A stretch of 33,375 bases of DNA. Origin: Deltaproteobacteria bacterium (GTDB lineage: Bacteria; Desulfobacterota; DSM-4660; Desulfatiglandales; Desulfatiglandaceae). The translations under genes and the position numbers were made by a program. The stretch is taken from contig JAFDDR010000037.1 in assembly GCA_019310785.1 (NCBI GenBank), positions 1-33,375 of the forward strand, given 5' to 3'. A model generated the notes under the pieces. That model searched no databases. It had not been told where the DNA came from and saw only the letters and a list, made by a program, of their open reading frames with translations. Positions 20,138 to 33,375 of the stretch are shown here, piece after piece (the stretch's first letter is position 1; each line of letters starts with the position of its first letter).

Positions 20138-20998
20138 TTAGTTTATCGAACGTACCGGCAATATAAATGCCCGCTTTTTCTTGTTCTGGTGATTAACATT
20201 CCCGAAATAGAGTAAAACAGTATAAGCATGAATGGGGCACGCAGTTTTTATGCATGTATATTTCTTGCCGTAAATAAATTCGGTTTCGGACCAATATGGC
20301 ATATGCACGATCATATTTTCAAAAGGGTTCGGCTCAACCAAGGCAGGACATTGCTTCTTAGTGTCTAACAGGCTTTTCCATTCTTCAATGGTAGGAAGCC
20401 GCCAGTCGGTATAGCCTCCGTGTTTGAATTTTTGGCACTTTTTCACTGCATCCGGCCACTGGGAGGCTGAAACAAAATCGAGTCTCCATCCGTTCTTTAT
20501 CCACATCAAGTTTGTCATTTTATCGGTAATCGTACCGTCCCGGTTGTCCACAAAACGGTCCTTTCCCCGACCCGGAACAGATGTCTGAACCACATCCTTT
20601 CCACTTGAGACAGTTTTTTTGGGGTGGTCGTCTGCTTTTTCGGGCCGTATTGCTTCTTGGAATTCATGGACTCCACGGTAACTCACGGCCCCTTCTTCTT
20701 TCAATTTCTCCCAGACTTCAAGGGCCTCCGCCTTTGTTTTATATTTGCCCAAGTAAACCCTGAAAAAATAACCCTTTCCTTGGACCTCGGCCTTTTTCCA
20801 GAAGACTATTTTGCCCTTATTCTTAAGCCCGTTAACGTATCTGTTCGCATTTGTGAGGTCCTTGAAAGACTGCACATGAATACTGTAATAAATTTGTTCC
20901 GCACAGTCCGCGTTAACAGCACCTGTGCATATGATCAGCAAGAGAAAGAGAACCCCTTTTATTAAAATCCGTCCTGATCTTGATACTAATAATCGCAT
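20138..20998 (-). CDS. Exported SPOR-domain and Lcl_C (DUF1566) protein
   Basis: 286 residues from ATG 20998, with GGAGG just upstream; an in-frame TTG at 21016 is less likely. A signal segment (GVLFLLLIICTGAVNA) is followed by a SPOR-like domain (about 35-110: YYSIHVQSFKDLTNANRYV and YFFRVYLGKYKTKAEALEV), which usually binds denuded peptidoglycan. A charged linker leads to an Lcl_C/DUF1566 domain (about 150-286: RFVDNRDGTITD, LMWIKN, GGYTDWRLPTIEEWKSL, PVRSIN) of C-type-lectin-like fold. The same Lcl_C domain ends the 1362-residue protein at 27490, with shared DGTxTD, LMW, WRLPTxxEWK and PVR motifs. A cell-wall-bound sensor or ligand-binding protein is inferred. Confidence 0.82.
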   Translation of the reverse strand: MRLLVSRSGRILIKGVLFLLLIICTGAVNADCAEQIYYSIHVQSFKDLTNANRYVNGLKNKGKIVFWKKAEVQGKGYFFRVYLGKYKTKAEALEVWEKLKEEGAVSYRGVHEFQEAIRPEKADDHPKKTVSSGKDVVQTSVPGRGKDRFVDNRDGTITDKMTNLMWIKNGWRLDFVSASQWPDAVKKCQKFKHGGYTDWRLPTIEEWKSLLDTKKQCPALVEPNPFENMIVHMPYWSETEFIYGKKYTCIKTACPIHAYTVLLYFGNVNHQNKKKRAFILPVRSIN

Positions 20999-21008
20999 AG
21001 CTCCTCCC

Positions 21009-21023
21009 ACGCCCAAAGGGCGT
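21009..21023 (-). other. Perfect hairpin next to a ribosome binding site
   Basis: ACGCCC-AAA-GGGCGT has a six-pair stem and a three-base loop. It ends a few bases before the GGGAGGAGCT ribosome-binding region of the SPOR-Lcl_C gene. It could affect translation starting there. No riboswitch class was recognised. Confidence 0.4.
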
Positions 21024-21138
21024 AGCTTTCCTCGTTGTAATAAAGCATAAGGATGTAGACTCTTTTCGCGGGAAAATAATGTGAGAGCGGTTCGGTGATC
21101 AGATTAGATTAGCACATTATTATTGGTATGCCAATGTC

Positions 21139-22041
21139 TTAAATCTTGATGACGTAGTGTATTGCCGTTGGTGACTCAGGGTCAACCTCACGGCCGAGGC
21201 TGATAATTCCATTACCTAACAATTGTGCTTCATCCCTTTTGAGGTTGACCTTCTTTTTCCCTTGAATAACCACGTAAGTGCCATTGGTACTCTGGTCAAT
21301 TAACACGAACTTGCCCCGGCGGTATTCGATGCGAGCGTGCGATCGGGAAACACGATTGTCATTCACCACTATTTCGTTGTGGCTCTGGCGTCCTAATGAA
21401 GCGCTGGGCATGTTTTCATCGACTTCAACCAAGTGATCATGAAATCGTATCTCCATGCGGGCTTTCAAGGTCATGGCATCTAAGGAATCCTCCACCATGA
21501 CAGTCACATCGTGGCGCTCCCATACCACTTCGTAGATGCTGATCTCTCCACTCTTTCCCTTGACCGTAGTCTTATCGATGCAACGGGCCGATTCCCGGTG
21601 CTCAGGCATCAGCTCAGCAACCGTCTCTTCCGTGGTGATGATCTGGCGCTGTTTTGCCTGGGCAACCATACGCGCGGCCACATTGACCGCATCTCCAAAA
21701 ACATCGTTACCTTCCTTTATAACCGGCCCCCATTGGATCCCAACGTAAATATTCGGTGGAGAAAAACCGGGAATGTCCTCTACAGTCAAATCTTCAAGCT
21801 CCTGGTGCATTTCCATTCCCGCCTCAACCGCATCATCGGCCGTCGGAAACGTGCACATTATCTCATCGCCGATCGTCTTGATTACCGTACCATGATACCG
21901 AGCAGTCACGTCTGAAAAAAGAGAAAGACAGGTGCCTATAAGGTTCTGGGCGATTTTATCACCTAAGGTTTCATATAGGTTGGTGCTCTTAGCAATGTCA
22001 GCAAATAGAATCGCAAGCGTATCAGTTTCTCGAGTCGTCAT
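21139..22041 (-). CDS. Class III adenylate cyclase fused to an FHA domain
   Basis: 300 residues. Residues ~5-175 are a class III cyclase domain: metal Asp15 (LFADIAKST) and Asp59 (TIGDEIMC), adenine-type Lys55, and VFGDAVNVAARM with Asp117, Asn120 and Arg124. All catalytic positions are intact, so ATP to cAMP conversion is expected. Residues ~200-300 are an FHA domain (SLGRQSHNEIVV, RVSRSHARIEYR, LIDQSTNGTYV) that binds phosphothreonine. No membrane helix is present, so the protein is cytoplasmic. It lies 32 bases after a PP2C gene, and a Ser/Thr kinase is encoded nearby. Phosphorylation-dependent control of the cyclase is a reasonable inference. Confidence 0.93.
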   Translation of the reverse strand: MTTRETDTLAILFADIAKSTNLYETLGDKIAQNLIGTCLSLFSDVTARYHGTVIKTIGDEIMCTFPTADDAVEAGMEMHQELEDLTVEDIPGFSPPNIYVGIQWGPVIKEGNDVFGDAVNVAARMVAQAKQRQIITTEETVAELMPEHRESARCIDKTTVKGKSGEISIYEVVWERHDVTVMVEDSLDAMTLKARMEIRFHDHLVEVDENMPSASLGRQSHNEIVVNDNRVSRSHARIEYRRGKFVLIDQSTNGTYVVIQGKKKVNLKRDEAQLLGNGIISLGREVDPESPTAIHYVIKI

Positions 22042-22073
22042 ACTGTTTTTCCGTGATAAACTCTTTCGTTTAA

Positions 22074-22865
22074 TTAAACTTTACAGGCCACTACACTGGT
22101 ATTGTCCTTGCCGCCGGCATCATTGGCAGCATCAACCAATAGTTTTGCAATATTCTCCACGTCATTTGCACCCTTCAATATCTTAGCAATCTGATCATCA
22201 GTGACCATATCGGTAAGTCCATCACTGCACAGGATGTATATGTCATCCTGCTGCCATTTATCCCATTCAATATCTGCAACGACTGCTACGTTAGGCCCGA
22301 TGGCCCTTGTAATAACGTTCTTGCCGGGTTCCTGGCCGATCTTGCCGTTACTCTCCCATTCCTCATGTGCGGAGTGATCGACTGTCAGACGCTTCAGAGC
22401 AGAATCTCTCCACCTGTACAGGCGACTGTCCCCAACGTGAAACCACAGCACGTATTCACCCTCAACCAGGACCAGACCCACAACGGTTGTCCCCATATAT
22501 CGCTCAAGATTCAGGTCCTGGTTGCGCTCGTAAAGAGCGGAAGACGCCTTGTCGATAGCCTCGTCTACGAGAGAAAAAAGGCATGCTATTTCAGATGGGA
22601 CACCATCCACACCGGTGATATCCTGGAGTTCTTCGGCCATCAGTTGCGGGTCCAAGTACTCGGAAATGACCTTGATCGCTGTCTGACTCGCCTCAGCGCC
22701 CCGTTCATGCCCCCCCATTCCATCGCAAAGCAGCAAGAAATGTCCTGCCTTATCGAGCCAGATTGAGTCTTCATTCTCGGTCCTCACATGTCCGGTATCC
22801 GAGACCCCACTTGCCACAAGACCGGAAGACTCCACCTTAATATTTACGTGTCCATCTGAATTCAT
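22074..22865 (-). CDS. PP2C-type Ser/Thr protein phosphatase (first of two)
   Basis: 263 residues. PP2C motifs in order: SDTGHVRTENEDS, LLLCDGMGGHERG with the metal-binding Asp, GTTVVGLVLVEG, WFHVGDSRLYRW, ITRAIGP, ILCSDGLTDMV and GGKDNTSVVAC. This is the complete catalytic set of a bacterial Stp/PrpC-like phosphatase, soluble and cytoplasmic. It is the first gene of a minus-strand pair with the cyclase-FHA gene and is divergent from the kinase operon. It probably reverses phosphorylation by the nearby kinase. Its sequence differs clearly from the second PP2C at 27502, so they are not a recent duplication. Confidence 0.94.
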   Translation of the reverse strand: MNSDGHVNIKVESSGLVASGVSDTGHVRTENEDSIWLDKAGHFLLLCDGMGGHERGAEASQTAIKVISEYLDPQLMAEELQDITGVDGVPSEIACLFSLVDEAIDKASSALYERNQDLNLERYMGTTVVGLVLVEGEYVLWFHVGDSRLYRWRDSALKRLTVDHSAHEEWESNGKIGQEPGKNVITRAIGPNVAVVADIEWDKWQQDDIYILCSDGLTDMVTDDQIAKILKGANDVENIAKLLVDAANDAGGKDNTSVVACKV

Positions 22866-22897
22866 TGGTCACTCACACAAATATGGATAATTTTAAT

Positions 22898-22927
22898 ACT
22901 ATAGACAAAATGATGCCTCATCGTCAA
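22898..22927 (-). promoter_or_regulatory. Probable promoter of the PP2C/cyclase-FHA operon
   Basis: Minus strand: TTGACG (22927-22922), 18-base spacer, TATAGT (22903-22898), 32 bases before the PP2C start. Good agreement with a sigma70-type promoter. Confidence 0.5.
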
Positions 22928-22963
22928 CTGCTATTCGTACTATCCTGAACCATTATCTCTGAC

Positions 22964-23002
22964 CACGCCCATCGAAGATCCCGTCAAGCGGGGGAGGACG
23001 TG
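22964..23002. repeat. 39-nt hairpin repeat, family B, copy 2
   Basis: The stem CACG (22964-22967)/CGTG (22999-23002) encloses the same 33-base core as at 1335-1373. The two bases that differ on the left side are matched by complementary changes on the right. The flanking CTCTGACC and GATTTTC are also shared. It lies between the two divergent signalling operons. Confidence 0.7.
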
Positions 23003-23107
23003 ATTTTCTAAAACGAAATAAAAAAAACAGAGACCAAACATGAATGACAGGGAAATATAACCGGAGTCCACCCATATTGTCAAGTGTGATCGTTTATTGA
23101 TTGTATC

Positions 23108-23136
23108 TTGACAGCAAGTCATTGAAATTCTATAAA
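23108..23136 (+). promoter_or_regulatory. Consensus promoter of the pseudocaspase/PP2C/kinase operon
   Basis: TTGACA (23108-23113), 17-base spacer, TATAAA (23131-23136). The hexamers and spacing are identical to the promoter at 19861. Transcription from here would give a leader of about 260 bases before ATG 23402, and the leader contains the long inverted repeat at 23173-23353. Confidence 0.65.
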
Positions 23137-23172
23137 TAGATATTTAGGAGCATTTTGGCCTTTGGACCCTGT

Positions 23173-23353
23173 CTCAAAGTGAAACCTTTGAAAAATGCTC
23201 AATTTTGGTCAAGTTCAAGGAAAGCGAAAATTTCAACCGCCCCGCTTAAGATGTCAAGCGGGACAGGCATCCATACCTTGAGTATTTCGAGGATTGAAAT
23301 TTGAGTTTGACGCCGAAATTGGGCAAAAGGGGGCATTTTGCAAAGGTCTCAAG
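23173..23353. repeat. Long imperfect inverted repeat in the leader of the pseudocaspase operon, family C
   Basis: The left arm begins CTCAAAGTGAAACCTTTGAA and continues with AAATGCTCAATTTTGG (23173-23208). It faces the right arm CCGAAATTGGGCAAAAGGGG..CATTTTGCAAAGGTCTCAAG (23313-23353). Further complementary words are GAAAATTTCAA with TTGAAATTTGAG-type sequence, and a GCCCCGCTT/AAGCGGGAC hairpin (23242-23265). The right arm read on the minus strand matches the repeat at 6653-6694. The rest of the 22866-23401 space has no gene. Confidence 0.65.
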
Positions 23354-23401
23354 GTGACGGGTTACGATGCTATTCAATGACCAACTTTCCATTAGGACTT
23401 C

Positions 23402-26400
23402 ATGTTAATGATCACTCCAAGATCGATTACCACAACACTCTGGATTTTTTTAGTCCTTTTTTGTGCAGGTTTAGCTGCCAAAGGTCTGCTCGCTCTCTCA
23501 GAAAACAAGAGTTCAAATGCGGAACACAATTATGCCCTCATTATCGGAATAAGTCGTTATGATAAGTGGACGAGCCTCAAGAGCCCTTCGAAAGACGCCG
23601 GGGAAATCGCAAGGATTCTTACGGAAAAATATGATTTCAAGAAAGAAAATATTACACTGCTCACGGACGAAACAAAAGAAAAACCCACCTTAGTGACCAT
23701 CTTCTCTCTTTTGGATAAATACATGTCCGACCTCACGGAACAAGACAACCTCCTTGTCTTTTTCTCCGGGCAGAGCACTGAAGACGAAAAGGGAGAGACC
23801 TACTGGATCCCGAAAGATGGATCAAAAAAAGCCAAAAGGACATGGTTGAGACATTCGGAGCTCTGCAAGGATTTCTTTGCCTCCCAGGACTTAAAGGCAA
23901 AAAGCGTCTGTATCATATCAGACTCCATGTTCTCAGGTAAACTGATCAAACCGTCGGCCATTACACTCTCCCCCTTTGACCTGCGTTATCCGGAAAAAAT
24001 AAGAGAGAAGGCATTAAACGTTTCCCGGGAAATCATTGCCTTTGGCGATCGCCACTGGCCCGGGAGTAAACGCACTGACGGCTTCGGGCTTTTCACCTAT
24101 TACTTGCGCAGGGCGCTCTTAAATAACTGGCTGAAGGTTATTGATATTGAAAACCTAATTTTCACTGAAAAAGCCATATTTGAGACTTCCAAGATAGCCG
24201 GGACAAGACTCTTGCGCGGCAGGCTCAGGAAGGCCCGACTCGAAGAGGATGGCCAGTTCATTATTACGCGCGTCATATCCCCTCCGGTTGTCGACGTGGT
24301 GGAGACGACTGTGAGCCCGAAAAAGGGCTACCAGGGTGACAAATTCATTTTTCAGGCAAAAACCAGTGCCTCCGCCTTTGAGGTATATGTTGAGGCAGGA
24401 GAACGGCAACACCTTATGGAAGGGTCCGGTACCCAATGGAAAAAGGCCATCAAAATAGCCAGTTTGGGCACGACCCGGTTGAGGATAATCGCAAGAAACA
24501 GCGATGACATCAAGGGCAAGCCAAAGGACGTACAGCTTACGACCATGAGAAGGGTGGCCAATTTGGTCAATGTGAAAGATGCACGCGTAACCCCTAAGAG
24601 AGGTTGGGGAGGGAATAATTTTCGCTTCAGGGCCACAACTGACGTACCCTCTCAAAAAGTCTCGTTGATAATGGGGAGGAAACGATTTGAAATGATGGGT
24701 TCCGGTACAAAATGGAATCTGACTAAGAGGGTAGAGGAAGTAGGAACCCTCGATTTTTCCGTAATCGCGACAAATGAGGATGGGGCCGAAGGCCGTTCAA
24801 AGGGCGGCATCCTTGTTGTAAAAGCACCTCTCGTTGATATTGCCGAGGTGAAGGCCGCGCCGGCCACGGGCTATGCCGGAGATGAATTTCTGATCACGGC
24901 CAGGGCAGACCGGCCTGCAAAATCCGTGTCACTCAAGATAGATGGTGTTACATACCCCATGGAAGGATCCGGGCTAAAATGGCGCTTCAAAAGAAGCATA
25001 AAAGGCATAGGAAAGAAAAAATTTGCCGTCATTGCCAAAAATATTGAGGGTTCCGAGGGTCTTTCCAAGAGCGGAAATATTTTGACCCGGAAAAGACCCA
25101 TGGTCATCCCGGATGTTGCAGAAATTTCTGTAAGCCCCAAAAAGCCTTACACCGATCAGACCTTTGCCATCCGGGTCAAGACTACTGGGCCCGCCGATGA
25201 AGTATTTGTGGAAATAGACGGCAAGAAGCACGTCATGGAAGGTGCCGGTACCGAATGGAAATATCTTACCCAGCTCGCTAACATCGGCACCAGCACATAC
25301 AAGGTGGTGGCAAAAAATAGCGAGGGCAAACCGGGTCTTTCCAAAAGCGGAAGTATCTTGACCCGCAAGAGGCCCTTGCCCATACCAAATGTTGCAGAAA
25401 TTTCTGTGAACCCAAAAAGACCATACACTGAAGAAACCTTTGCCATCCGGGTCAAGACCAGTGCACCCGCCGACAAGGTGTACGTGGAGCTGAAAGGTAA
25501 GAAGCATCTTATGCAGGGTGAGACTAACGAATGGAAATACCTGACCCAGCTCGCCAGTATCGGTCCAACCAAATTCAGGGTCATAGCCAAGAACAAAGAC
25601 GGCAAGCAGGGTCTCACAAAGGACGGCCTGGTCTCAATCGCGAAACGCATTGGAGAGGCCATAGATGTGGTAAAGGCAGATGTGCTTCCGAAAAAGGGCT
25701 ATCCCGGGCAGGAGTACAGGTTTAAAGCCACAACCGCCACTCCGGCCAAAAGTGTGGCACTTATTATTGAAGAAAAACGCTATAATATGACCGGTTCAGG
25801 AACCAATTGGTACCTGAAAAAGAAGGTTAAGGATCTGGGGACCATATCCTACGCCATGGTTGCCAAGAACGAAGATGGCATTGAAGGCGGTTCCAGGATC
25901 GGAACGCTCCTCATCAAAGCCCGTTCAGTCAACGTTGTAGAGGTTAAGGCATCGCCGGAAACAGGCTATGCCGGAGATGCATTCATAATTACCGTAAAAA
26001 CGGACAACCCTGCAAGTGCCGTTTCCTTAGAGATGGATGGTGTAACGTATAAGATGAAAGGAGCAGGCCGGAAATGGGTCTTCAAACGGAAGGTACAGGA
26101 GGTGGGCAAGAAAAAGTTTACAGTCATAGCCAAAAACCTCGAAGGTGTCGAGGGCCTTGCAAAAAGTGCAGACATACTCACCAAAAAGAGACTGCTGACC
26201 ATCCCGGACGTGGCATCGGTCGATGTCAAGGTTGTGGGCCCCGGCAAGGGATATACGGGCGACAGTTATCTCGTCAAGGCGATTACAACTGAGCCCGCTG
26301 ACGAAGTATACATAGAGATCGAAGGGAAAAAATTCGCCATGAAGGGTGCAGGCACCAAATGGGAATACACGGCCAAGATAGACAAGTTAGGCGCTAACAA

Positions 26401-27490
26401 ATATGCTGTGGCCGCGTTGAACAGAAAGGGCAAGAAAGGCCTTGCAAAAAGCGGGAATATATTGACCAAAAAGAGGCCCCTGCCCATCCCGGATGTGGTG
26501 TCGGTTGACGTGAGCGTGGTGAGCCCGGGCGAAGGATACGTGGGAGACAGTTATCTGATCAAGGTAAATACGGCCGAGCCGGCGGACAGTATAACTGTAG
26601 AGATTGAAGGAAAAAAATTCGCCATGGAAGGGGCCGGAACCGAATGGAAATACCTGACCCAGCTAAACAAGCTGGGCATCAACAAATATACGGTGGTGGC
26701 CGTTAACAAGGAGGGCAGGCAGGGCCTCGCAAAGCAGGGTGAGATAAAAACGGCAATGAGACCCACGGCCCTGATCAATGTGGCAAAGGCGGAAGTGACC
26801 CCGTCCAAAGGATATGCAGGAAAAGAATTCACCTTCACGGCCGCCACAGACAGCCCTGCTAAAGGCGTAACCCTTGTAATAGGAAAAGATCGTTATGAAA
26901 TGACCGGCTCCGGCACCGAATGGACCCTTAAGAAAAAAATAGAAAAGACGGGGGACCTGGTATTTTACATGGTTGCCAAAAATGAGGATGGCGTGGAAGG
27001 TGGTTCAAAGACCTCTGAACTCACCGTGGCCGAGCTTAAAAAACGCTATACGCGTAATAGAGACGGAACCATAACAGATGTCATAACCGGAGAGGTCAAG
27101 AAAAGATTTAAAGACAATGATGATGGGACAGTAACAGACCTCTATAGCGACCTCATGTGGCTAAAGTCACCCAAACAGGTTGCCCTAAAGTATGAAGATG
27201 CTGTAGAATACTGCGAAAATCTCAAATTTAAGGGCTATGAGGGATGGCGGCTTCCCACGCTCCAGGAATGGAAGGCTATCATGGATAAAACACGAAAAAA
27301 TCCTTCCCTGCCACCGGGGAATCCTTTTGTCAATATCCCCACGCAGACCGGGTACTGGTCGAAAACAAAACATAAATTCGGTCCCTTATACGTCTGGCAG
27401 GTCACCTTGTGGTACGGCAAAGCAGGACATTTGAGTAAAAAGAAATATGGTAATGTCTGGCCCGTCAGGTACGCGGAATTAAAGAAGTAA
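23402..27490 (+). CDS. Exported caspase-like protein with degenerate active site, ten beta repeats and Lcl_C domain
   Basis: 1362 residues from ATG 23402 (AGGA just upstream; ATG 23408 is an alternative). A signal or anchor segment (13-35) is followed by a caspase/peptidase C14 fold at ~40-280: YALIIGISRYDKW, SPSKDAGEIARIL, ITLLTDE, LLVFFSG, YWIPKDG. The catalytic His position reads SGQST (Gln124) and the Cys position reads SDSMFSG (Met176), so it is probably inactive as a protease. Residues ~297-1212 are ten repeats of 88-95 residues, probably Ig-like, with Y.G..F, PA..V.V.I, M.GSGT.W, LG...Y and A.N.DG..G. Residues ~1215-1362 form an Lcl_C domain (DGTVTD, DLMWLKS, GWRLPTLQEWKA). It is followed after 11 bases by PP2C and then the kinase. 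An envelope scaffold or sensor is inferred. Confidence 0.88.
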   Translation: MLMITPRSITTTLWIFLVLFCAGLAAKGLLALSENKSSNAEHNYALIIGISRYDKWTSLKSPSKDAGEIARILTEKYDFKKENITLLTDETKEKPTLVTIFSLLDKYMSDLTEQDNLLVFFSGQSTEDEKGETYWIPKDGSKKAKRTWLRHSELCKDFFASQDLKAKSVCIISDSMFSGKLIKPSAITLSPFDLRYPEKIREKALNVSREIIAFGDRHWPGSKRTDGFGLFTYYLRRALLNNWLKVIDIENLIFTEKAIFETSKIAGTRLLRGRLRKARLEEDGQFIITRVISPPVVDVVETTVSPKKGYQGDKFIFQAKTSASAFEVYVEAGERQHLMEGSGTQWKKAIKIASLGTTRLRIIARNSDDIKGKPKDVQLTTMRRVANLVNVKDARVTPKRGWGGNNFRFRATTDVPSQKVSLIMGRKRFEMMGSGTKWNLTKRVEEVGTLDFSVIATNEDGAEGRSKGGILVVKAPLVDIAEVKAAPATGYAGDEFLITARADRPAKSVSLKIDGVTYPMEGSGLKWRFKRSIKGIGKKKFAVIAKNIEGSEGLSKSGNILTRKRPMVIPDVAEISVSPKKPYTDQTFAIRVKTTGPADEVFVEIDGKKHVMEGAGTEWKYLTQLANIGTSTYKVVAKNSEGKPGLSKSGSILTRKRPLPIPNVAEISVNPKRPYTEETFAIRVKTSAPADKVYVELKGKKHLMQGETNEWKYLTQLASIGPTKFRVIAKNKDGKQGLTKDGLVSIAKRIGEAIDVVKADVLPKKGYPGQEYRFKATTATPAKSVALIIEEKRYNMTGSGTNWYLKKKVKDLGTISYAMVAKNEDGIEGGSRIGTLLIKARSVNVVEVKASPETGYAGDAFIITVKTDNPASAVSLEMDGVTYKMKGAGRKWVFKRKVQEVGKKKFTVIAKNLEGVEGLAKSADILTKKRLLTIPDVASVDVKVVGPGKGYTGDSYLVKAITTEPADEVYIEIEGKKFAMKGAGTKWEYTAKIDKLGANKYAVAALNRKGKKGLAKSGNILTKKRPLPIPDVVSVDVSVVSPGEGYVGDSYLIKVNTAEPADSITVEIEGKKFAMEGAGTEWKYLTQLNKLGINKYTVVAVNKEGRQGLAKQGEIKTAMRPTALINVAKAEVTPSKGYAGKEFTFTAATDSPAKGVTLVIGKDRYEMTGSGTEWTLKKKIEKTGDLVFYMVAKNEDGVEGGSKTSELTVAELKKRYTRNRDGTITDVITGEVKKRFKDNDDGTVTDLYSDLMWLKSPKQVALKYEDAVEYCENLKFKGYEGWRLPTLQEWKAIMDKTRKNPSLPPGNPFVNIPTQTGYWSKTKHKFGPLYVWQVTLWYGKAGHLSKKKYGNVWPVRYAELKK
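24290..27038 (+). repeat. Ten in-frame tandem repeats with a period-four higher order
   Basis: Repeat starts (bases): 24290, 24566, 24833, 25109, 25385, 25661, 25928, 26204, 26489, 26774. Repeats 2, 6 and 10 resemble each other (NEDG.EG.SK/SR, 89 or 88 residues). Repeats 3 and 7 share GKKKF.VIAKN.EG and DGVTY. Repeats 4-5 and 8-9 share PIPDV and LTQL. This indicates duplication of a four-repeat block, with later gain of three residues in repeats 8 and 9. Confidence 0.85.
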
Positions 27491-27501
27491 AGAGGATTGT
27501 A

Positions 27502-28284
27502 ATGGAATTCGTCACCATTGGCAGCGCAACCCATGTAGGAATGAAAAGGCAGGAAAACCAGGACTATCATGCCTGGCATTCACCCGAGGACAGCAGCAAA
27601 AAAGGTATACTGCTGGCCTTAGCCGACGGCATGGGAGGCCGATACGGGGGGGCTACGGCCTCAAAAATTGCGGTTGATGTTCTCATTGAAACGTATTATA
27701 AAGATCTGTCTCACAGTATTTCCGAATCGCTGGAAAAGGCATTTCAAAAGGCCAATGAAGAAGTTGTTGCTAAGGGCCATACGGATATAAATTTAGCGGG
27801 AATGGCCTCGACCCTCACCGCTGTTGTGTTGAAACCGGACAAGATGTATTATGCCCATGTGGGAGACAGCAGGGGTTATAGCATATATAAAAACGAAATT
27901 ACACAATTCACTGAAGATCATTCATATGTGGCGGACCTGATAAAGGCAGGACAGATCGAGGAGAAAGAGGCGGAGACACACCCTGAACGGAATATTATTA
28001 CCAGGGCAATCGGCCTTGAATCTAAACTAAGAGTGGACGCGCCCGCTGAGCCACAAACAATAAAAAAGGATCAGCATATACTATTATGCTGTGACGGCCT
28101 TCACGGCGTTGTTTCAAATGAAGAAATTATGAGCGCCGTGTATGAATATAAGGAGCCGGACCTGATATGTGAGAAACTGGTGGAAAAGGCTAACGAGCTC
28201 GGCGGACCTGATAATATAACCGTAATGATAGCAAGGGTGGACAGAATCGGTTTGATAAGCAGGATCATGAATCTCGTGAGGTAA
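27502..28284 (+). CDS. PP2C-type Ser/Thr protein phosphatase (second)
   Basis: 260 residues from ATG 27502 with AGAGGA six bases upstream. Motifs: GMKRQENQDYHAW, LALADGMGGRYGG (metal Asp), ASTLTAVVLKPD, YAHVGDSRGYSIY, ITRAIGLES, LLCCDGLHGVV and GGPDNITVMIARV. The catalytic set is complete and the protein is soluble. It lies between the pseudocaspase gene (11 bases) and the kinase gene (9 bases), so the three are surely one transcript. Classic kinase/phosphatase pairing suggests it dephosphorylates the kinase or its targets. Confidence 0.95.
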   Translation: MEFVTIGSATHVGMKRQENQDYHAWHSPEDSSKKGILLALADGMGGRYGGATASKIAVDVLIETYYKDLSHSISESLEKAFQKANEEVVAKGHTDINLAGMASTLTAVVLKPDKMYYAHVGDSRGYSIYKNEITQFTEDHSYVADLIKAGQIEEKEAETHPERNIITRAIGLESKLRVDAPAEPQTIKKDQHILLCCDGLHGVVSNEEIMSAVYEYKEPDLICEKLVEKANELGGPDNITVMIARVDRIGLISRIMNLVR

Positions 28285-28293
28285 TCGTTTATC

Positions 28294-30096
28294 ATGGACC
28301 AGACGGTAGGCGACTATGAAATTATAAAATCATTAGGAAGAGGCGGATTCGGCAGTGTCTGGAAGGCAAAGTCGAGCATGGGCGATATCGTTGCCTTGAA
28401 AATTCTTAATCCCCAGGTGTTGGACAATGCAAGGGTGGTCAAGAAATTCTTTCACGAGGCAATGATTTTAGCCAAACTGGATCATCCGAACATATGCAAG
28501 CTCATGGAGTTCTTCCCTGACGGAAACAATTACGCCATTGTCATGGAATATATTGAAGGCCTCGAGCTGAAAAAACTCCTGAAAGATCAGGAAGGCCAGT
28601 TGCCTCTTGACCAGGCAAACAAAATCGCCAGGCAGTCGCTTGCGGCCTTTCAGTATGCCCATGAAAACGGGATATTGCACCGGGACATCAAGCCCGGCAA
28701 TATTATGATTGATAAAAACGGTGACAGTAAAATCATGGACTTCGGCATCGCAAAGATCTCCACCACCGCGAGCCATGATACAGCGGCTAAGATGCTATCG
28801 GTCCATTATGTGCCGCCCGAAAGATTTGATCCTAAGAAAATTATTGATGCAAGGTCGGATATCTACTCCCTTGCCCTCGTATTTTACGAGCTTTTTACCG
28901 GCAGAAGGGCATTTATGGTGGAAGAGACCTCCCAGATCATGTTCTGTCACTTAAACGAGATCCCTGACTCGCCTGAAAAATACCGGCCGGACATGCCTCA
29001 TGAGATCAGCCAGGCCATATCAAGGGCACTTGAAAAGGATCCCGATGACCGGTTCAAGGATTTCAAGGAATTCCAGCAGGCAATGGAAGGCGCTATGCCG
29101 ATCCCGGATGACGCCACCCAGGCAGTTGATATTGGAACCATAAAGCCCGAGCCTGTAAGTGAAGTAGATTTCGAAAAAAAGAAGAAGAAAAGCCCCGTAT
29201 TGATGATAACTTCAATCGCGGTTGTTGTTATTGCCCTGTTCGTTGGGGGCTATTTTGCATATAATAAGTATTTTAGCGGAGGTCCGCAACCTGGAACTGG
29301 ACCGGAAGCCACTGTCACGGAAACCGAACCGGGCAAACCTGCTGAACTCCCCTACGGAAAAGACAAAAGCATCATGATAGTCATCCCCAAAGGGGAATTC
29401 GAAATGGGTTCGGATAAATATTCTGCTGAAAAGCCCGTGCAAAAAATCTACATGGATAACTACTACATTGATAAATTCCTTGTTACAAATGCACAATTCC
29501 AGAAATTCGCTGAAGAAACAGGGTATGTCACGGACGCGGAAAAGGCAGGCGGGGGAATGGTGAGGATCGGAAGGCGCTGGAAAAAAATCAAGGGGGCAAC
29601 GTGGAAAATGCCTGACGGGCTTACACCGATCGAGGGACAGGAAAACCATCCCGTGAGCCAGGTTTCCTACAATGATGCATCAGCCTACTGCAAGTGGGCG
29701 GAAAAAGACCTCCCCACAGAAGCCCAGTGGGAAAAAGCCGCAAGGGGAACTGACGGTAGGGTATACCCCTGGGGCAATCATGACCCCGATGATACCATGG
29801 CCAACTTTGACAATCTCATTGGCGGCACAACCGCTGTGAAAAGCTACGAAAAAGGAAAGAGTCCTTATGGTGTGCATGATGCGGCGGGAAATGTTTATCA
29901 GTGGTGCAAGGACTGGTATGGAACGGGTCAAAGGGCCGAAAAGAACCCCTCCGGGCCAGCGTCCGGCAAGGAACATGTTGTAAAAGGCGGTTCGTTTATT
30001 GAGGGTACGGAAAGTCTGCGTTCGTCCAACAGGGACAGGTACAAACCCGATTACAGCAGCTACCTGTTCGGTTTCCGCTGCGCATGTGAAAAATAA
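28294..30096 (+). CDS. Transmembrane Ser/Thr kinase with extracytoplasmic FGE/sulfatase-modifying-factor-like domain
   Basis: 600 residues. The Hanks-type kinase domain (8-265) has LGRGGFGSVW, Lys36 (VALKIL), Glu55, HRDIKPGN (Asp131), DFG (Asp149) and VPPERF; all catalytic residues are present. A juxtamembrane segment with KKKKK leads to one transmembrane helix (about 302-323). A low-complexity linker is followed by an FGE/SUMF1-like domain (361-598: MIVIPKGEFEMGSD, HPVSQVSYNDASAYCKWA, LPTEAQWEKAARG, DAAGNVYQWCKDW, GGSFIE, GFRCACEK). The paired cysteines that bind copper in true formylglycine enzymes are not at the expected place after GGSF, so ligand binding is more likely than catalysis. 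It is the last gene of the pseudocaspase-PP2C-kinase operon. Pkn1-like kinases share this layout. Confidence 0.95.
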   Translation: MDQTVGDYEIIKSLGRGGFGSVWKAKSSMGDIVALKILNPQVLDNARVVKKFFHEAMILAKLDHPNICKLMEFFPDGNNYAIVMEYIEGLELKKLLKDQEGQLPLDQANKIARQSLAAFQYAHENGILHRDIKPGNIMIDKNGDSKIMDFGIAKISTTASHDTAAKMLSVHYVPPERFDPKKIIDARSDIYSLALVFYELFTGRRAFMVEETSQIMFCHLNEIPDSPEKYRPDMPHEISQAISRALEKDPDDRFKDFKEFQQAMEGAMPIPDDATQAVDIGTIKPEPVSEVDFEKKKKKSPVLMITSIAVVVIALFVGGYFAYNKYFSGGPQPGTGPEATVTETEPGKPAELPYGKDKSIMIVIPKGEFEMGSDKYSAEKPVQKIYMDNYYIDKFLVTNAQFQKFAEETGYVTDAEKAGGGMVRIGRRWKKIKGATWKMPDGLTPIEGQENHPVSQVSYNDASAYCKWAEKDLPTEAQWEKAARGTDGRVYPWGNHDPDDTMANFDNLIGGTTAVKSYEKGKSPYGVHDAAGNVYQWCKDWYGTGQRAEKNPSGPASGKEHVVKGGSFIEGTESLRSSNRDRYKPDYSSYLFGFRCACEK

Positions 30097-30222: not shown

Positions 30223-30738
30223 CTACTTCTTGTTCAACCCCTTCAAAACCTCATCCGTTATATCAACACTCGGATCCAGATAACCGATGGCCTTTGGGTC
30301 CTTTAGGATAATGGTATACTTCCTCTTTTTTGCCACCCGCTTCAAAACGCCGTCTGCCTTCTTCAATATAATGGCGACCAGTTCCCGGTCCTCTCTCAGG
30401 ATATCCTCCTTGGCGTCCGCAAGCAGTCTCTGATACTCCTTGTATACCCTTCTAAGGGCCTCGATTTTATTTCGCTTTTCCACAGGGTCCATGCCGGCGC
30501 CCTTTTCAGTGAGAAGCGATTTCAGGTTATTGACTTCCCACAGTTTATTGGAGACAATCTCTTCCCTTTGTTTGCGCATTTTCCGGATGTCGGCACGTGC
30601 GGCCTTGCCCATCTTGGATTCATTGACCAGCCTCTGGAGATTGATAAACCCCACCTTGTCCCCTGCATGGGAAATAGCGCACAGTGTCAACCCAAATGCA
30701 ACGCAGCATGTCATCGCTAATATGCTTTTTATTCTCAT
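30223..30738 (-). CDS. OmpH/Skp-family periplasmic chaperone
   Basis: 171 residues from ATG 30738 (AAGGA nearby). A signal peptide (SILAMTCCVAFGLTLCAISHA, cleavage near residue 25) is followed by the Skp-type start KVGFINLQRLVNES, a long charged helical arm (about 50-125) and a beta strand YTIILKDPKAIGYLDPSVDITDEVLKGLN at the end. Skp/OmpH trimers hold unfolded outer-membrane proteins in the periplasm. It lies 92 bases downstream of a large adhesin gene on the same strand, and not in a bamA-lpxD cluster. This suggests a dedicated chaperone for that secreted protein. Confidence 0.88.
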   Translation of the reverse strand: MRIKSILAMTCCVAFGLTLCAISHAGDKVGFINLQRLVNESKMGKAARADIRKMRKQREEIVSNKLWEVNNLKSLLTEKGAGMDPVEKRNKIEALRRVYKEYQRLLADAKEDILREDRELVAIILKKADGVLKRVAKKRKYTIILKDPKAIGYLDPSVDITDEVLKGLNKK

Positions 30739-30768
30739 TTCCTTATTTACTCCTTATAACAACTATCA

Positions 30769-30791
30769 CTCCCCCTTTAATAAATGGGGAG
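30769..30791. terminator. Possible hairpin between the adhesin and OmpH-like genes
   Basis: CTCCCC-C-TTT-AAT-AAA-T-GGGGAG forms a six-pair stem, one mismatch and three more pairs. No clear T-run follows in the direction of transcription, so it may be a processing or attenuation site and not a full terminator. Confidence 0.3.
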
Positions 30792-30830
30792 GGAGGGATT
30801 TTAATTGAAAAAATGAGCCGGCTTATTTTT

Positions 30831-33375
30831 TCAGTTCAAAGAAGAAAGCTGGATAACCAGGTCACCGGCCTCTGTTTCTTCATACAAAAGTGTCGGTCTG
30901 TAAACGCCAAGCCTGGAGGGCCGGAGAGAATCGGGCGCCAACCATGAAGTCTCCCTCTCCCCTTTTCTCTTCAGGCATTCCTCATCATCCGGGTCGCACT
31001 CCTCTTCCTCTTCCTCCTCCATGAGGATATCAATCCACAGGGGCGCTTTCATGAAAAACTCTGCCGTTGCCGCTGCGCGCAACAATTTCTCAAGCATTTC
31101 CTGCTGGGATGACAATGTGAGCAGGGAACCAAAATCTATGGTATTCGCACCAAAGACCACGTTGCCTATTGTCAATGTACCTGCCGCGTTTATCTGATCC
31201 AGCGAAACGTCCGCGCCGGCGAAGCCAATCGGGCTGACATTCCCCGAAACACCACCGGTCTCACCAAGATTAAAGAATATGTTGCTTGCAGAAGCCGGTT
31301 GAACTTGCAGCACCCAGTTACCAATAGCCGCATCTGTTCCAACCGTATTCCCTCCAATAATGATCGTGTTTCCTCTAACCGTCCCACCACCGGCTATGGT
31401 TGCACTGGTATTGGAGGATGCCCAATCAAGGCTGCCAAAAGCGGCTGTTGCATTTCCCGCGTTCAACATGCCCGCAACATTCACAGCCCCGGTGTTTGCA
31501 ATTAAAAGATCAGTGTTACTCGTGTTAATCGTGCCGCCCGGCAGGCTAAAATCGCCCCCGCGGCTTGTAAAGGTGTTTGTAGCATTCACATTGCCGTTCA
31601 GGTTGACCGCAGTATTTCCGGTAATGTCAATTAGCGCGGCAGTAATAGCTGCTGCCGTCAGAGTCCCGGAGCTGTGGACCATCAGGTTGCCAAGAACGGT
31701 CCCTCCTCCCACTGCCCCGGTAAAGGTGACATCGCCCGTACCGGCGGTCAGGTCCAGATTCTGAGTGCCGTTTAAAGCACCGACAAAGGTGATGTTCCCG
31801 CCTCCGGGACCTGTATCCACTGCCGTGTTAGCACCCAGCAATGTTGCACTGTTGAACGCAACGTTTCCGCCCGTGGTGGTCACGTTGGCGTTAAGGTTGG
31901 TGTTCCCGCCCGATGTTGCTACAAACCCGTTCGTGGCGGTTATATCACCGTTTATGTTAAGAACACCGCCTGCAATCGCGGTCATCGCGCCGCCAACATT
32001 GGATGCGATCAGGGTCAGGGCATTGGCATCGCTAACTGCCGCATTAAAACCTGCGTTCGTATTGAGTACCACCGTGCCTGTAAAGTTGTTTCCGGCATTG
32101 GTCAGATCGATGGCCCCACCAGCCCCGTTGAAAATCGCATTCCCCACGTTGGTGACAGCCCCGCCCGTCTGGGTGATGCCCACCGCGTTGACCGTGAGCG
32201 TGGAATTGTTCATGTTGGATGCCGCAAAATTCAGTGCATTGACGTCCGTTATGGACATGGCGTTGGCCGCGGTGTTGTTAAGCGACACCGTACCGGTGAA
32301 ATCATTGGCATTGTCCAGGGTCACATTTCCTGCCGTGCTCACCACCATGTTGGCCACGTTGAGCACAGTGCCCGCATTCTGGGTCACCGCACCGGTTATG
32401 TCGCCTCCTATGCCCACCAGAAGCGTTCCGTTTGCCGCGTTGACGTTGCCAAGCTGTACATTACCTGCATCCTGCACTGTGACAGCATTTCCGGCCGCGC
32501 TGGTGGTGGTCAGGGTCCCGTTCAGGTCGATGGCCCCGTTATCCCCGTCCACCAGGATGGTGCCGCCTCCCGCATTGATTGTCTGGGCCGCCAACTGGGT
32601 CACACCCACGCCCGTCACGGCCACGTTGCCGCCCCCCGAGGTCAGGTCACCTCCAAGGGTGACAAGACCGGTATGCGTTATGGTGATCGGATTGTTGGTA
32701 GTGGTTATGGGCCCGCCCGTATTGTTAAACGTCGTACCGGCGCTTGCAAAACCGCCCGGCGCTGTCACCGCACCGTTCAGGTCTACGCCCCCGCCATCTG
32801 TTATCGACATGGATACCGCATCTATCGAATTCGCCGCCGTAACACCTCCTGAACCGCTGTGAATAGTCAGTGCCCCGAGCTGTACCCCGTTCCCTACTTG
32901 CTGATCAAAGTCAATGCTGCCTGTACCTGCCGTCAGATCCAATGTCTGGGCTCCCGCTACCGTACCGTCTAACGTGTCGGCAAACTGGATGTTGCCACCA
33001 CCAGCGGCGCCCGTATTCACGGCCACATTAGCCGTCAGCGTCACAGTCTCAGCAAAGCTGATGTCATCATTCGTCGTCACAATACTATCATCAAGGTCCG
33101 TCGTACCTGTATCAGCACTGCTGTCCTGAATGAATGCACCGTCCAGATTGAAGTTCGCCCCCACAGCTATTGTCAGAAGACCTGCATTGTCAATCGTCAC
33201 AGTTCCGCCCGTCGTCGTCGTCACAGTGTTTAAAAAGTCAACCGTATCCGCGTTGATGTCAATACCCTCATCATCAACCGCAACCGTGTTGTCAAAATCC
33301 AGCGTTGCCGCCGATACCACGCTCAGACCGCTCAGCGCGCCACCCGCTCCTATCGTGCTCGTAAAATCTATGTTA
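30831..33375 (-). CDS. Giant beta-repeat adhesin/filamentous-haemagglutinin-like protein, C-terminal part (truncated by window edge)
   Basis: About 847 residues are visible and the frame is open to the right edge; GTG 33320 is only an internal codon. The sequence is low-complexity and rich in Gly, Ala, Asn, Thr and Val, with short strands such as GGNVTLDNANDFTGTVSLNN and NFTGTVVLNTNAG, typical of right-handed beta-helix secreted adhesins. A longer block recurs (NTGAAGGGNIQF..LDLTAGTG and DTGPGGGNITF..LDLTAGTG). The last ~100 residues differ: a helical part (EMLEKLLRAAATAEFF), a run of eight acidic residues before CDPDDEEC with two cysteines, and a basic/hydrophobic tail. No autotransporter barrel is seen. 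Such tails occur in two-partner-type secreted proteins, and the secretion route here is inferred. OmpH-like chaperone follows on the same strand. Confidence 0.8.
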   Translation of the reverse strand, partial: NIDFTSTIGAGGALSGLSVVSAATLDFDNTVAVDDEGIDINADTVDFLNTVTTTTGGTVTIDNAGLLTIAVGANFNLDGAFIQDSSADTGTTDLDDSIVTTNDDISFAETVTLTANVAVNTGAAGGGNIQFADTLDGTVAGAQTLDLTAGTGSIDFDQQVGNGVQLGALTIHSGSGGVTAANSIDAVSMSITDGGGVDLNGAVTAPGGFASAGTTFNNTGGPITTTNNPITITHTGLVTLGGDLTSGGGNVAVTGVGVTQLAAQTINAGGGTILVDGDNGAIDLNGTLTTTSAAGNAVTVQDAGNVQLGNVNAANGTLLVGIGGDITGAVTQNAGTVLNVANMVVSTAGNVTLDNANDFTGTVSLNNTAANAMSITDVNALNFAASNMNNSTLTVNAVGITQTGGAVTNVGNAIFNGAGGAIDLTNAGNNFTGTVVLNTNAGFNAAVSDANALTLIASNVGGAMTAIAGGVLNINGDITATNGFVATSGGNTNLNANVTTTGGNVAFNSATLLGANTAVDTGPGGGNITFVGALNGTQNLDLTAGTGDVTFTGAVGGGTVLGNLMVHSSGTLTAAAITAALIDITGNTAVNLNGNVNATNTFTSRGGDFSLPGGTINTSNTDLLIANTGAVNVAGMLNAGNATAAFGSLDWASSNTSATIAGGGTVRGNTIIIGGNTVGTDAAIGNWVLQVQPASASNIFFNLGETGGVSGNVSPIGFAGADVSLDQINAAGTLTIGNVVFGANTIDFGSLLTLSSQQEMLEKLLRAAATAEFFMKAPLWIDILMEEEEEEECDPDDEECLKRKGERETSWLAPDSLRPSRLGVYRPTLLYEETEAGDLVIQLSSLN

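Follow-up and report, generated by a model that had tools for sequence, protein, structure and literature searches.

The stretch analysed here, called the window below, is a complete contig of 33,375 nucleotides (JAFDDR010000037.1, our contig C310) from the 341-contig metagenome-assembled genome (MAG) of a Deltaproteobacteria bacterium. Between positions 20,138 and 30,096 it carries six adjacent genes that belong to a conserved, patchily distributed module. A sequence-only reading had placed six open reading frames (ORFs) there, in two divergent operons, and the ORF list and Pfam confirmed both their coordinates and their domains. On the minus strand lie the genes for a predicted exported protein with SPOR and Lcl_C domains (20138..21016, 292 aa; Pfam SPOR 4.4e-10, Lcl_C 1.4e-18), for a class III, adenylate-type cyclase fused to an FHA domain (21139..22041, 300 aa; Pfam and residue alignment) and for a PP2C phosphatase, PP2Ca (22074..22865, 263 aa). 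The plus strand encodes a predicted exported pseudocaspase with ten Ig-like repeats and a terminal Lcl_C domain (23402..27490, 1362 aa; Pfam, alignment, AlphaFold2 and Foldseek), a second phosphatase, PP2Cb (27502..28284, 260 aa), and a Ser/Thr kinase joined by a linker and a transmembrane segment to a non-catalytic FGE domain (28294..30096, 600 aa; Pfam Pkinase 3.9e-55, FGE 2.8e-61). Related loci and genomes are designated by our L and G numbers, respectively.

Topology was examined by hydropathy only. A single transmembrane segment is found in the kinase, around residue 302, while the cyclase and both phosphatases lack hydrophobic segments. The caspase protein and the SPOR-Lcl_C protein each have an N-terminal hydrophobic segment, as judged from hydropathy and not from a dedicated signal-peptide predictor.

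The operons diverge from a single shared spacer (22866..23401) with back-to-back sigma70-like promoters: TTGACA-17-TATAAA on the plus strand (23108) and TTGACA-18-TATATT on the minus strand (23083). In the window alone, a promoter consensus scan did not rise above shuffled sequence; the plus-strand promoter is found again in nearly all orthologous spacers. Visual inspection of the divergent spacer for a CRP-like operator yielded no convincing candidate. In the L148 spacer (about 1395-1455), a long, near-perfect inverted repeat (TGCTGTCAAGTTATGAAATC...GATTTCATAACTTGACAGCA) flanks both divergent -35 boxes; this possible operator is partly eroded in the window.

When the kinase was used as query against 84,980 species genomes, 14 full kinase-FGE orthologues were recovered, with identities of 49-91%. 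Their hosts are MAGs titled Desulfobacteraceae, Desulfobacterales, Thermodesulfobacteriota, Deltaproteobacteria, Proteobacteria or Olavius symbiont. The caspase-repeat gene adjoins the kinase gene, upstream, in 13 of these 14 loci, and the cyclase-FHA gene is present in all 11 whose contigs are long enough, the remaining three ending before it. PP2Cb and PP2Ca are each found in 10 of the 14, and SPOR-Lcl_C orthologues were detected in L146, L149, L151, L153, L159, L132, L202 and L204. In three congeners the island is found whole or in part, on short contigs. Gene order and orientation are largely kept over many genera at 50-65% identity, with the cyclase gene inverted in L151 and L153. A distant group (L155-L158) has neither PP2Cb nor the Lcl_C domain but retains the kinase-FGE and caspase-repeat genes and, as far as the contigs show, the cyclase-FHA gene. 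Pairwise divergences of the families correlate, with r=0.98 for kinase and caspase, 0.85 for kinase and cyclase and 0.89 for caspase and cyclase, and the clade of L155 and L157 is present in the trees of all three families.

Distribution is patchy: a kinase-FGE gene scores above threshold in six of 85 genomes of the same class. A phylum-wide kinase search gave one match, which carries little information on distribution because only three candidates were scored per genome. The commonness of each family, together with the absence of the kinase-FGE gene from most sampled relatives, might suggest that common signalling genes came together by chance. Such an assembly is refuted by co-conservation, given that order and orientation are largely maintained across many genera, and we regard it as hardly credible. 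The sequence-only reading had staked its grouping on whether homologues occur separately in relatives, and the outcome favours the grouping.

Two observations concern related loci. L159 (458-3368) and L154 (3832-6778) share upstream genes for a response regulator-metallo-beta-lactamase and a DUF1232-DnaJ protein (Pfam was run on L159 only), and an SprT-like/DUF2786 protein is common to their upstream regions and is also found in L151. Genome G404 harbors two other clusters of kinase, PP2C and cyclase-FHA genes (L197 8600-13198 and L198 3059-9301) without a pseudocaspase.

The six-gene unit turned out to be drawn too small, as two further genes (30223-33375) belong to it in most relatives. One encodes an OmpH/Skp-like periplasmic chaperone (30223..30738, minus strand, 171 aa; Pfam OmpH 1.5e-24), here a module extension; the other encodes a giant exoprotein with filamentous-haemagglutinin-like repeats (30831..33375, minus strand; DUF5649 repeats and translation) and ends at the contig edge. 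Both are convergent to the kinase operon. The chaperone gene lies beside the kinase gene in eight other loci (L147-L151, L153, L159 and L201), and a giant repeat exoprotein gene does so in L147, L149-L152, L159 and L201. In L200, a gene of the latter kind lies beside a gene for an active caspase with Lcl_C. All contigs that carry the giant gene stop within it. The module thus comprises six, and probably eight, neighbouring genes.

The caspase domain of the window is degenerate, with FFSGQS in place of the GH motif and DSM in place of DSC. The catalytic cysteine is lost in all 13 aligned module caspases, where M, L, P, V, F or A replaces it, and the catalytic histidine is lost as well in the genus of the window, in L155 and in L157. 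No module member among these 13 has the His-Cys dyad of a caspase or orthocaspase protease; a caspase p20 fold with substituted dyad residues is what defines a pseudo-orthocaspase. The outgroup caspases L200 and L205 retain both residues (GHG, DSCYSG). Ten repeats of about 90 residues were counted, seven by motif (residues 306 to 1134) and three from the translation, so that the degenerate caspase, the ten beta repeats and the Lcl_C domain stand as originally described. An AlphaFold2 model of the caspase domain with two repeats reached a mean pLDDT of 89.5, and its best Foldseek matches were the MALT1 caspase-Ig region and metacaspases; in the model, the repeats are predicted to fold as Ig-like sandwiches. 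For the Lcl_C domain of this protein, sequence searches found no relative in the PDB, and a fold search was left unused because AlphaFold2 confidence was low in that region. L200 (2702-4567) encodes an exported caspase with an intact dyad, a coiled coil and Lcl_C, beside a giant repeat protein gene; the pseudocaspase may have arisen from an active protein of this kind.

Aligned orthologues of the kinase show no change at the lysine, glutamate, HRD and DFG positions. The protein is not a kinase of the PASTA type: an FGE domain is found instead, and the NF033483 score is 265 bits against a cut-off of 450. Alignment to human and other PDB FGEs revealed that the catalytic cysteine pair (336/341 in the human enzyme) is absent. 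When the window was compared with L146, dN/dS was 0.05 in the FGE domain, 0.39 in the part comprising the kinase linker and the transmembrane segment, and 0.11 in the caspase domain, where it indicates purifying selection. Because the caspase and FGE domains have lost their catalytic cysteines and yet show ratios of 0.11 and 0.05, we take both to be conserved non-catalytic domains, a pattern expected if other functions are retained. Diversification of the FGE domain as a C-type-lectin target of a diversity-generating retroelement was considered and rejected: its strong constraint between congeners is unlike that of a hypervariable target, and no reverse transcriptase was found among the window proteins scanned, a genome-wide search not having been made.

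Metal-binding motifs are kept in the PP2C orthologues. The phosphatases had been called unrelated, a view that has to be abandoned, as both match the Stp1/IreP family (NF033484, cut-off 230 bits; PP2Cb 249.2 bits, PP2Ca below it with 194.5) and are 35% identical to each other. In L133 (9167-10882) and L134 (1632-3345), a kinase gene without FGE is divergent from a PP2Ca orthologue, and the L133 pair is located a few genes away from dnaA- and gyrase-like genes.

A cell-suicide or defence system, of the caspase/FGE/kinase type that multicellular bacteria use in biological conflicts, would also account for part of this inventory. Such systems repeatedly contain caspase, FGE, cyclic nucleotide cyclase, FHA and kinase domains, and about 70% of their caspases in effector position are inactive (PMC7159879). 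PADLOC returned weak matches for the caspase and to a Pycsar cyclase, and a stronger but superfamily-wide match of the kinase to PD-T4-6. The caspase of the module is, however, both dead and, by hydropathy, exported, and the FGE domain is strongly constrained (dN/dS 0.05). Furthermore, a Pfam scan of 20 window proteins detected no MoxR, vWA, STAND NTPase or effector-associated domain, and a VMAP/STAND conflict system was rejected on these grounds. We consider a role in conflict unlikely.

The cyclase has the residues of a class III adenylate cyclase: D15 and D59 for metal binding, K55 and D113 for base specification, and N120 and R124 for the transition state. Its FHA domain has the GR, SxxH and NG residues. 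In 19 sequences, D15, K55, D59, N120, R124 and the GR, H and NG residues of FHA are kept, while D113 and S232 have one exception each. Kinase, both phosphatases, cyclase and FHA domain thus keep their active residues and are predicted to be functional.

The joint occurrence of a kinase, a PP2C phosphatase and an FHA protein, plus a weak match of the TagH model to the FHA domain, might point to a displaced relative of the threonine phosphorylation pathway (PpkA-PppA-Fha) of the type VI secretion system (T6SS). Here, however, FHA is fused to a cyclase; TssC/VipB is absent from all four genomes of the genus (G000-G003) and was found in one of eight module-related genomes tested. The missing T6SS largely refutes this relationship, which we deem very unlikely.

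A candidate link between kinase and cyclase is provided by a threonine motif. The kinase linker, otherwise fast-changing, contains D/E-D-A/S-T followed by hydrophobic residues (DDxT) in 13 of 13 orthologues; in the window it reads DDATQAVD (29107..29130, plus strand, residues 272-279), with Thr275 in the juxtamembrane position. In 2000 shuffles the motif occurred on average in 1.2 linkers and in 5 at most, and it was present in one of 18 other kinases; these figures are descriptive and post hoc because the pattern was drawn from the same sequences, and the orthologues counted are not independent. Between cyclase and FHA, alignment and motif scan identified DVTVMVE (21490..21510, minus strand, residues 178-184), in which D178, T180, V181 and M182 are invariant. 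The D-x-T pattern is nearly absent from the other four module proteins. We regard the shared motif, which is new here, as a plausible kinase-to-FHA link.

G078, the one relative with an exchanged kinase domain, amounts to an experiment of nature. Neither the kinase domain nor the linker is native there: identity is 28-42%, and the linker motif is lacking, while the FGE domain remains orthologous (54-78% in windowed comparison), as do the caspase and PP2Cb. The locus has no PP2Ca gene, and the cyclase-FHA and SPOR-Lcl_C genes are on another contig; the motif is also absent from the cyclase-FHA linker. This pattern suggests a division of the module into two sets: pseudocaspase, FGE domain, PP2Cb and exoprotein would form an outer one, and the kinase domain with the linker motif, cyclase-FHA and PP2Ca an inner one. 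In line with a separate inner set, G042 and G045 retain only a kinase lacking FGE, next to a PP2Ca orthologue (about 50% identity). At L201 (12525-14342), the kinase domain has been exchanged for a distant one, with the FGE ectodomain still orthologous.

Separation of the two sets in G078 raises the possibility that they are independent units. One would be a sensor operon, with pseudocaspase, PP2Cb and kinase-FGE plus OmpH and exoprotein, that uses phosphorylation to control the assembly of the envelope or of the exoprotein; the cyclase-FHA/SPOR operon would not necessarily be its target. The existence of cyclase-FHA genes without the kinase in several other families (L193, L194 and L196) is in agreement with this view. 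Nevertheless, wherever the native kinase domain is present and the contig is informative (11 of 11), the two sets lie side by side, and the separated case is precisely the one with changed kinase domain and linker motif. We therefore consider two independent units doubtful.

The reading that we favor, with a probability of about one half, is that of an envelope-to-cAMP module, a model drawn from the anatomy of the module and from the precedents of Bdellovibrio DgcB and mycobacterial PknB-FhaA. Its sensing side would lie outside the inner membrane and would consist of the pseudocaspase with its Ig-like stalk and Lcl_C, the SPOR-Lcl_C protein and the kinase ectodomain with its FGE fold. Instead of cleaving proteins, the dead caspase may bind them as a scaffold or may read a ligand. 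The SPOR-Lcl_C protein should bind peptidoglycan; binding of peptidoglycan by SPOR and of glycans by Lcl_C is described for other proteins (PMC6895207 and PMC11162425, respectively). What is monitored is probably the state or export of the giant surface exoprotein, together with its Skp-like chaperone. A signal at the FGE domain would activate the cytoplasmic kinase, which may autophosphorylate Thr275 in its own linker and probably also phosphorylate Thr180 of the cyclase linker. Binding of such a phospho-Thr motif by FHA would recruit the cyclase to the kinase or rearrange the cyclase dimer, leading to cAMP synthesis, and both phosphatases would reset the system by removing the phosphate marks.

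Conservation, hydropathy-based topology, residue integrity and motif conservation come from the sequences; from these we infer activation, phosphorylation, docking, cAMP production, the ligand and the link with the exoprotein. An envelope kinase-FHA-cAMP circuit had already been proposed in the sequence-only reading, and it gains from co-conservation, a fitting topology, the presence of the necessary catalytic and phospho-reading residues and the candidate threonine link. Its further claim, that three lectin-like-fold domains read envelope ligands, derives from fold. Aside from the post hoc nature of the motif counts, several facts weigh against our model. Cyclase-FHA genes occur without the kinase, as mentioned above, and the FHA ligand could be a different protein. 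In L154, the caspase gene is absent and the remaining core present; PP2Ca is absent from L155 and L157, and the exoprotein link from L155-L158 as a whole. Several parts are therefore dispensable. A more specific proposal, which we hold only tentatively, is that the dead, exported caspase-Ig protein is the sensor or scaffold of a receptor kinase, that docking of the FHA-cyclase on the kinase linker controls cAMP, and that the system is dedicated to assembly of the giant exoprotein.

If correct, the model would connect a Ser/Thr receptor kinase of bacteria directly to cAMP, would assign a role to an exported pseudocaspase lineage that is absent from the published survey of pseudo-orthocaspases, and would point to monitoring of giant surface proteins in Gram-negative bacteria. 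The shared threonine motif makes its key step testable. In the open-access literature we found the single families but no description of the combination; novelty is provisional because subscription papers lay outside the search.

Among known systems, the PpkA/PppA/Fha trio of T6SS is similar in combining kinase, PP2C and FHA; here there is no T6SS, the output is a cyclase, and an FGE domain and a pseudocaspase are present. Fusion of a kinase to an FGE-family domain is shared with a chlamydial kinase, around which we know of no pseudocaspase, cyclase-FHA or PP2C operon. In that kinase the domain is DUF323/FGE (PMC1262709). Pseudo-orthocaspases are bacterial proteins that have lost the His-Cys dyad; about 90% are alphaproteobacterial or cyanobacterial, with Tyr/Ser variants (PMC6426788). 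In contrast, the module caspases have M, L, P, V, F or A in place of the cysteine, along with Ig repeats, Lcl_C and export. The MALT1 paracaspase, the best Foldseek match (whole-chain TM-score 0.36-0.46, 13% identity), is an active cytosolic protease. In Mycobacterium, the phosphorylated juxtamembrane linker of PknB is bound by FhaA (PMC12077195, citing Roumestand 2011). The likeness lies in a transmembrane kinase with an FHA partner; here the kinase has FGE instead of PASTA, FHA is carried by a cyclase, and a pseudocaspase is present. In Bdellovibrio DgcB, an FHA-GGDEF protein, the FHA domain gates the cyclase through a phospho-Thr peptide with a hydrophobic residue (Val) at +3 (PMC6733907). 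Both are soluble nucleotide cyclases with a phospho-Thr-reading FHA domain, the DgcB peptide being its own; the enzyme described here differs in being of class III, adenylate type, instead of GGDEF, in the C-terminal location of FHA, and in its fixed neighbourhood of a receptor kinase and two PP2C phosphatases.

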